Source: Branchiostoma floridae (taxonomy: Eukaryota > Chordata > Leptocardii > Amphioxiformes > Branchiostomatidae). From it: a stretch of 64,000 nt of DNA. This document shows, piece by piece, positions 8,980-10,098 of this stretch (the first letter of the stretch is position 1; every line of letters begins with the position of its first letter). Under the pieces are notes generated by a model. That model was given only the letters and a program-made list of their open reading frames with translations, was not told the origin of the DNA and searched no databases. The stretch spans positions 8,236,746 through 8,300,745 of the forward strand of contig NC_049991.1 in assembly GCF_000003815.2 (NCBI RefSeq), in the 5' to 3' direction. Made by a program: the position numbers and the translations under genes.

Positions 8980-10047
8980 TGGTCAGGCCGTGACAGTATG
9001 TGCTTGCTGTCCTGGTGGCCCATGGTTGTACTGTACAGTTCTAAGATGTTCAGCACGTTATAGTACGTGCCACGATAGTTGGTCTTGTGAACCAAGGTTG
9101 TGCTGTCCGTATAGTTCTATAATGTCGCGGCCTGCACGTGCTGGCTAACCCAGTATCCCATGGTTCTGCTATCCTTATAGCTAAAGGATGTCCGCAGGGC
9201 AGGCTATGATTACGTGCTAGCTATCCCGACAGCTCCAAAGATGTGCTGTTCCCTGTAGTTCTCAGATGTCGAGGCCACTTGGACAGTGACAGTACCTGTT
9301 ATCTAGCCAGGTGTTCTAACAGTTCTATGATGTCGTTGCCACGCCTTGACAGTACAGCCCAAGGCTGTGAAGGCTATGCTATCCTCAATGATCTACGATG
9401 CCAAGGCCAGTCCGTGACAGCGGCTAGCTTTCCCGTCGAATATTGGTTGTGCTGTTCCAACAGTTCCGTAGAGGCCAGGCTAGGGCTGTAACAGCTGTAA
9501 CAGCCAATGTTGTGCTGTTCATACAGTTCTAAGATGTGGAGTCCAGGCCGTAACAGTACGTGCTAGCTATTCCGACAGCCCAAGGCTGTGCTGTTCTTAC
9601 AGTTCTAAGATGTCGAGGACAGGCCGTGACAGCACGTGCTAGCTATTCCGTCAGCTATTGTGGTTTGCTGTTCCTACAGTTCTAAGATGTGAAGATCATG
9701 CTGTGACAGTACGAGCTAGCTGTCCCGGCAGCCCAAGTTGTACTGTACCTACAGTTCTAAGATGATCAGGCTGTGATAGCACACACTAGCTGTTCCGGCA
9801 GCCCAAGTTGTACTGTACCTACAGTTCTAACATGATCAGGCCGTGATAGCACACACTAGCTGTTCCGTCAGCCCAAGTTGTACTGTACCTGCAGTTCTAA
9901 GATGATCAGACCGTGATAGCACGTGCTAGCTATTCCGTCAGCTATTGTGGTTTGCTGTTCCTACAGTTCTAAGATGTCAAGGTCATGCCGTGACGGGACA
10001 TGATAGCTGGCCCGGCGGCCCATGTTCGCAGCTGGCGGCGCGCTGTT
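8980..10047. repeat. Minisatellite of 69-77 bp units derived from or shared with the Gyc76C-like terminal exon
   Basis: About 13-14 tandem units. Each begins near the conserved core CTACAGTTCTAAGATG and continues through a GCCGTGACAG...GCTAGCT...GCTGTTC pattern. Cores start at 9598, 9675, 9750, 9820, 9890 and 9962. Units near the gene are regular; those before 9530 are diverged and partly disrupted. The unit at 9961-10047 is coding, and the rest would lie in the 3' untranslated region or just beyond it. Confidence 0.85.
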
Positions 10048-10098
10048 CCTCCGTTGAGCTGTCCGTTTGACAGGCCTGTAGCTTTTGTTCAAATCGTT
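9961..10098 (-). CDS. Gyc76C: Gyc76C-like exon 26: C-terminal tail and stop
   Basis: 45 codons and a TAG stop. It is basic ([21 protein letters not shown]) and ends HDLDILEL. The acceptor is tttttacag. The C-terminal L-x-L could be a class II PDZ ligand (inference). About 29 of the codons, and the stop, are homologous to each unit of the tandem array downstream. RRAS and RRNS resemble cAMP/cGMP-kinase sites. Confidence 0.85.
   Translation of the reverse strand, partial: NDLNKSYRPVKRTAQRRNSAPPAANMGRRASYHVPSRHDLDILEL

Follow-up and report, generated by a model that had tools for sequence, protein, structure and literature searches.

A receptor guanylate cyclase gene of Branchiostoma floridae probably has its 3' end within a minisatellite whose first unit lies in a real terminal exon, whichever way the array arose. 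The window analysed is a stretch of 64,000 nt, 8236746–8300745 of contig NC_049991.1, in an assembly of 513,431,437 bases, and the gene, its exons and the repeat units all lie on its minus strand. That unit would be made up of the final 29 codons, counting the stop, of the terminal exon as predicted, and 14 more would follow in the 3' flank. If confirmed, this would extend the boundary-spanning minisatellites of lancelets beyond splice sites to protein ends, and would offer a concrete locus at which to follow the birth of a protein end next to an array with recent turnover.

The receptor cyclase gene and its predicted last exon

The gene body, consisting of receptor-ligand, putative kinase-like and cyclase exons, was located by Pfam and solved-chain matches at 22405–44129 (minus strand; outer limits approximate). 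PF01094 (receptor ligand-binding) was found in one exon with an E-value of 1.7e-12 and in a second with 23.8 bits (cut-off 25.4), while PF00211 (guanylate cyclase) matched four exons with E-values from 6e-6 to 2.9e-14; by Pfam, the extracellular ligand-binding and cyclase domains that define receptor guanylate cyclases are thus both present. The one exon examined for the kinase-homology domain gave a Pkinase match (E-value=5.8e-4) below its cut-off. Among solved chains, atrial natriuretic peptide receptor 1 (NPR1) is the best relative, and the lancelet gene has ligand-binding and cyclase exons, and possibly a kinase-like one, in common with receptor guanylate cyclases of the NPR type. In the alignment of the cyclase end, homology to NPR1 extends over residues 1–47 of the joined query and goes no further. 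The databank NPR1 chain stops within four residues of the cyclase domain, whereas the lancelet gene continues for about 90 predicted residues, to which there was no Pfam match and no PDB match of note.

The 3' end of the cyclase domain and this tail are spread over three exons: 22496–22405, 10793–10620 and 10098–9961. The cyclase exon (acceptor CTTCTAG|CC) ends in ...GVIPMK and is joined in phase 0 (ATGAAG|GTCAGT to TCCAG|GGA) to the penultimate exon, which ends in ...NNFTQ and is joined, again in phase 0 (ACACAG|GTGGGT to TTTTTACAG|AAC), to a terminal exon predicted from sequence only, with 45 residues and a TAG stop codon at 9961–9963.

A 160-residue cyclase query produced 63 exon matches genome-wide, the gene's own included. 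The 3' parts of eight paralogues, chosen among the better matches (57–66% identity in the cyclase match), were read. In seven of them a GKG...WL-type exon, corresponding to the penultimate exon, continues to a stop 11–61 residues after WL, and no donor-like site (simple pattern) was seen in these seven exons; in the eighth, L036, the 5 kb searched contained no recognisable exon of this type. A 60-residue query of the penultimate exon had one weak outside match of note, in paralogue L032 (E-value=0.014), and the 45-residue tail had no second match in the whole genome at E-values up to 10 (one candidate scored). Because the tail has no second genome match and the seven readable paralogues read on to a stop, the extra terminal exon looks peculiar to this gene among the paralogues read (seven of the eight fetched). 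The earlier note on this DNA had proposed the tail to be a young, lineage-specific feature; what is supported is that the exon looks specific to this gene.

The terminal exon is quite likely to be real and coding. Its model is coherent, with two phase-0 junctions, good splice sites and a gene-like GC3 pattern. GC at codon positions 1/2/3 is 0.58/0.49/0.64, against 0.54/0.38/0.68 in the cyclase exons (182 codons), and reading in either of the remaining frames yields 0.50/0.64/0.59 or 0.64/0.59/0.50, so that GC3 is highest in the used frame only. Alternatively, the exon is noncoding: without the last splice the frame of the penultimate exon runs for nine more residues to a stop at 10592–10590, where the protein would end unspliced, and 10048–8955 would be merely a downstream minisatellite. 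This agrees with the readable paralogues, whose exon of the penultimate type continues to a stop, and with a tail that matches no Pfam family, nor any solved chain past the cyclase part. Frames of this length also follow chance acceptors: at least 45 open codons in phase 0 lie behind 5 of 40 acceptor-like sites (12.45 kb scanned; two of the five are the gene's own exons), so open stretches of 45 codons after an acceptor are nothing unusual in this DNA. A noncoding exon, which we regard as unlikely, is opposed by the good splice sites that share one phase, by the GC3 maximum in the used frame only and by the want of a donor-like site in the seven paralogue tails.

The C-terminal LEL of the predicted protein fits the class II PDZ ligand pattern and is a candidate ligand. 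Three paralogous cyclases (L033, L037 and L038) read on to the ends ETVV, ESFV and ETVC, the first two of which fit the class I PDZ ligand pattern. In Drosophila, Gyc76C, the receptor of which the earlier note makes this gene a presumed orthologue, is reported to bind GIPC1 (PMC5461112); passages of PMC4595086 contain nothing on the C-terminus.

A unit shared by the predicted coding end and the array

The units were delimited by hand on the minus strand at GAACTGTAG|GAACAGC, which gave 15 contiguous units of 63–88 nt, from U0 (10048–9961) to U14 (9031–8955). U0, the coding unit, has 88 nt: the first 50 nt of the exon lie before it, and its final codon is the stop; its strongly matching part is marked out by alignment and profile. 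Beyond the stop, 14 units of 63–78 nt each, typically about 75 nt, were counted by hand over about 1 kb (9960–8955). U1–U6 (9960–9521) are regular, 70–77 nt long, and recognised by profile and partly by Tandem Repeats Finder, which alone calls only 9501–9976 (6.5 copies of 70). U7–U14 (9520–8955), placed by hand split and profile, are more diverged, and U7, U9 and U10 are partial matches.

Judged by sequence comparison, the coding end and the array are one tandem family. The exon piece 10047–9961 aligned to the array (8980–9957) with a Smith-Waterman score of 77, whereas shuffling the exon piece 1000 times gave at most 29 and shuffling the array 1000 times at most 28; the best match to a single unit is 84% over 69 nt (9739–9671). 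A sequence-only profile, for which 11 of 14 noncoding units were used while U0 and the three that aligned poorly (U7, U9 and U10) were set aside, detects the predicted coding end at 10026–9961 (minus strand) with 49.4 bits and an E-value of 2.7e-14. Its 15 matches in the 64-kb window are the 11 source units (44.7–76.2 bits), U0, U9 (20.5 bits), U10 (18.9 bits) and U7 (9.8 bits). Chance or simple-sequence noise as the source of this similarity is refuted by the shuffles and the profile, with the genome search also against it, and its probability is negligible.

The earlier note had claimed that the end of the coding exon, stop included, shares its unit with the array and would score above shuffled sequence, and both points are borne out. 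Its further statement that the exon part 9961–10047 aligns along its whole length with each of about 13 units is too strong, since U9, U10 and U7 match weakly; 11 units match strongly, and the count is 14. The strong alignment of U0 is also limited to 10026–9961, while 10048–10027 consists of the short match GAACAGC followed by some 12 extra in-frame nt. The stretch 10098–10018 alone scored at chance level against the array (reached by 33 of 1000 shuffles).

The unit at 9671–9747 had seven matches in the 513-Mb assembly, all of them in this array or U0, with U0 third at 84%; the search scores best candidates only, so absence of the unit elsewhere is not proven by it. The profile had no match in 200 kb of flanks, all 15 of its matches over 264 kb being array or terminal exon, nor in 40.5 kb around the eight paralogues.

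Within the array the highest pairwise identities are those of U2 and U3 (96%), U1 and U5 (92%, with the first 34 aligned nt identical, 34/34) and U3 and U4 (90%). The farther a unit lies from the gene, the more it mismatches the consensus (Spearman 0.58, p 0.03, 14 units, three of them on partial alignments, with a consensus weighted by the near-identical proximal units), in agreement with the earlier description of regular proximal and decayed distal units. With 10 mismatches in 62 positions U0 is as near to the consensus as the proximal units are, and it is closest to U4 (79% over aligned positions). When compared with the majority of U5, U6, U8 and U11–U14, U0 alone departs at six positions, U4 alone at five, and both together at four, with the same letter each time, a pattern suggestive of exchange and of duplication in blocks near the gene. 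Since the coding unit resembles U4 most, it would be part of the gene-side turnover and no outlier. A unit tree rooted by the coding copy had been proposed as a guide to direction. Trees from two alignments of 12 units (U7, U9 and U10 dropped) resolved neither the branching nor the position of the root, and hence gave no direction; constrained trees neither showed nor rejected a grouping of U0 with U4 (p-AU 0.386) or of U0 with U2, U3 and U4 (p-AU 0.423).

Read in the frame of U0, the hand-made consensus unit gives NSTTLGCRNS*HVLSRPGLDILEL*. At the site of the inner stop U0 has TAT, and in the 12 of 14 array units that are readable there the triplet is TAG in eight, TAA in one, CAG in one, TAT in one (U13) and AAG in one. 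These are homologous triplets, some of which are shifted out of the U0 frame by length differences; through such differences U2 and U3 are open throughout in that frame. The extra nucleotides of U0 are a private insertion. The DILEL end falls in a well-kept part of the unit, and 17 nt at the end of the unit are well conserved in most copies. Donor-like sites (CAG|GTACAG or TAG|GTACAG), which are possible cryptic splice sites, occur at the U1/U2, U2/U3 and U3/U4 joints (9891, 9821 and 9751, minus strand).

Growth or capture, and a probable 3' untranslated location

The units would have arisen by tandem duplication and local exchange, through slippage or unequal crossing-over, and the identities of U2 with U3 and of U1 with U5, including the identical start of the latter pair, would place the most recent turnover at the gene-side end. 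Whole units duplicated beyond the first stop would leave the protein unchanged, while exchange inside U0 would alter it. As to direction, the balance is near even; by analogy with the amphioxus mirages discussed below, we slightly prefer growth of the array outward from the gene to capture of a unit that was already there. Under capture, the minisatellite would have come first, downstream of a gene whose last exon was the one that begins at 10793. New donor and acceptor sites would then have created a terminal exon entering the first unit, with the unit-end TAG as its stop and a C-terminus of satellite origin; we hold this course of events to be possible but the less probable one.

Several observations bear on this choice. 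In seven of the eight paralogues fetched, the exon of the penultimate type runs on into a stop codon without a donor-like site (simple pattern), and the tail lacks a second match in the genome, as capture would have it. Nine of the 12 readable units carry a stop triplet (eight TAG and one TAA) where the exon has TAT; seen together with the private in-frame insertion of U0, this likewise leans to capture, but one early array copy that gained TAG would give the same pattern, U13 also has TAT, and length differences leave U2 and U3 open in the U0 frame. The unit itself was found nowhere else in the genome search (best candidates scored), which counts against capture. Base composition leans the other way from the stop triplets: array GC is 0.494, against 0.326 at 8000–8950 and 0.353 at 10100–10600, and such a raised GC would fit a coding ancestor and thus outward growth. 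The contrast shrinks to 0.49 against 0.38 with 1-kb flanks that include the exon, and ten arrays in the surrounding 200 kb range from 0.30 to 0.49, none above this array and one equal to it at 0.49. A comparison of U0 with the consensus by codon position, made by eye, revealed no clear excess of third-position change. A bolder form of the capture reading is that a signalling receptor obtained its C-terminus from a minisatellite through a new terminal exon reaching into the first unit, that sequence exchange between the array, variable in copy number, and the tail with its C-terminal motif still goes on, and that alleles may differ in tail and unit number; this we consider doubtful.

The first AATAAA downstream of the stop is at 8251–8256 (minus strand), and its use would place the array in the 3' untranslated region, where it probably lies. 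A structured RNA element of that region is a very improbable explanation of the array. The well-kept 17-nt unit end would fit it, but the fold z-score is -1.03 with 4 of 20 shuffles folding as well, the consensus fold is without pairs and the window holds no Rfam match at gathering score; on these three grounds RNA structure was rejected. A scan for bacterial promoters and terminators is not applicable to this genome.

Amphioxus mirages and neighbouring repeats

The closest known kind of structure is the amphioxus mirage, which PMC3087553 describes as tandem repeats across intron/exon boundaries, or duplicated gene boundaries, of unclear mechanism, with unit lengths of 10–72 bp (Adh3) and 150–160 bp (globins). 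PMC3902484 adds PGBD5 (units of 60 and 108 bp) and TnC as further cases, and in these papers some mirage units are reported to evolve in concert. The likenesses are tandem units that take in part of an exon and extend into adjoining noncoding DNA, concerted evolution of some units, and a unit length beyond the stop (63–78 nt) that lies between those of the Adh3 and globin units and near those of PGBD5. The present units are minisatellite-like and contain sequence of a predicted exon. They do not, however, cross an intron/exon boundary: U0 lies wholly within the exon, from 50 nt past its start up to the stop, the acceptor used lies outside the unit, and donor-like sites occur only at the three joints within the array. 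Mirages as described span a splice site, and the present array spans a stop codon and 3' flank. Length differences between haplotypes and undisturbed mRNA processing are other traits of mirages. Since the array works like a mirage but lacks the defining splice boundary, we do not file it as one; it is a gene-end variant of the exon-boundary minisatellites known from amphioxus. Among the matches listed, from open-licence papers only, no stop-codon-spanning array and no lancelet receptor cyclase tail was recognised, which does not imply that such cases are unpublished.

Other repeats were noted in and around the window. Between the exons of the receptor gene lie a 21-bp array (27 copies, 16648–17225), a 17-bp array (11 copies, 34284–34474) and a mariner-like transposase piece (Mos1-type HTH_48, 43420–43755, minus strand, E-value=8.3e-10). 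The ten arrays in 200 kb around the window are those with a period of at least 30 and at least three copies (rows merged). One of 44 bp (L003:2304–3263), read by eye, fills most of an intron in a GTP-binding-protein-like gene and does not enter its exons. Two 37-bp arrays more than 100 kb apart (L006:3893–4475 and L018:2707–3650) are bordered on one side by almost identical sequence, which would fit transport by a single mobile or duplicated element. Within the window, a 36-bp tandem repeat of 3.4 copies (58066–58187, minus strand) stands in an open frame just before a match to adrenodoxin reductase (E-value=1.2e-6) and would lengthen the N-terminal part of that protein.
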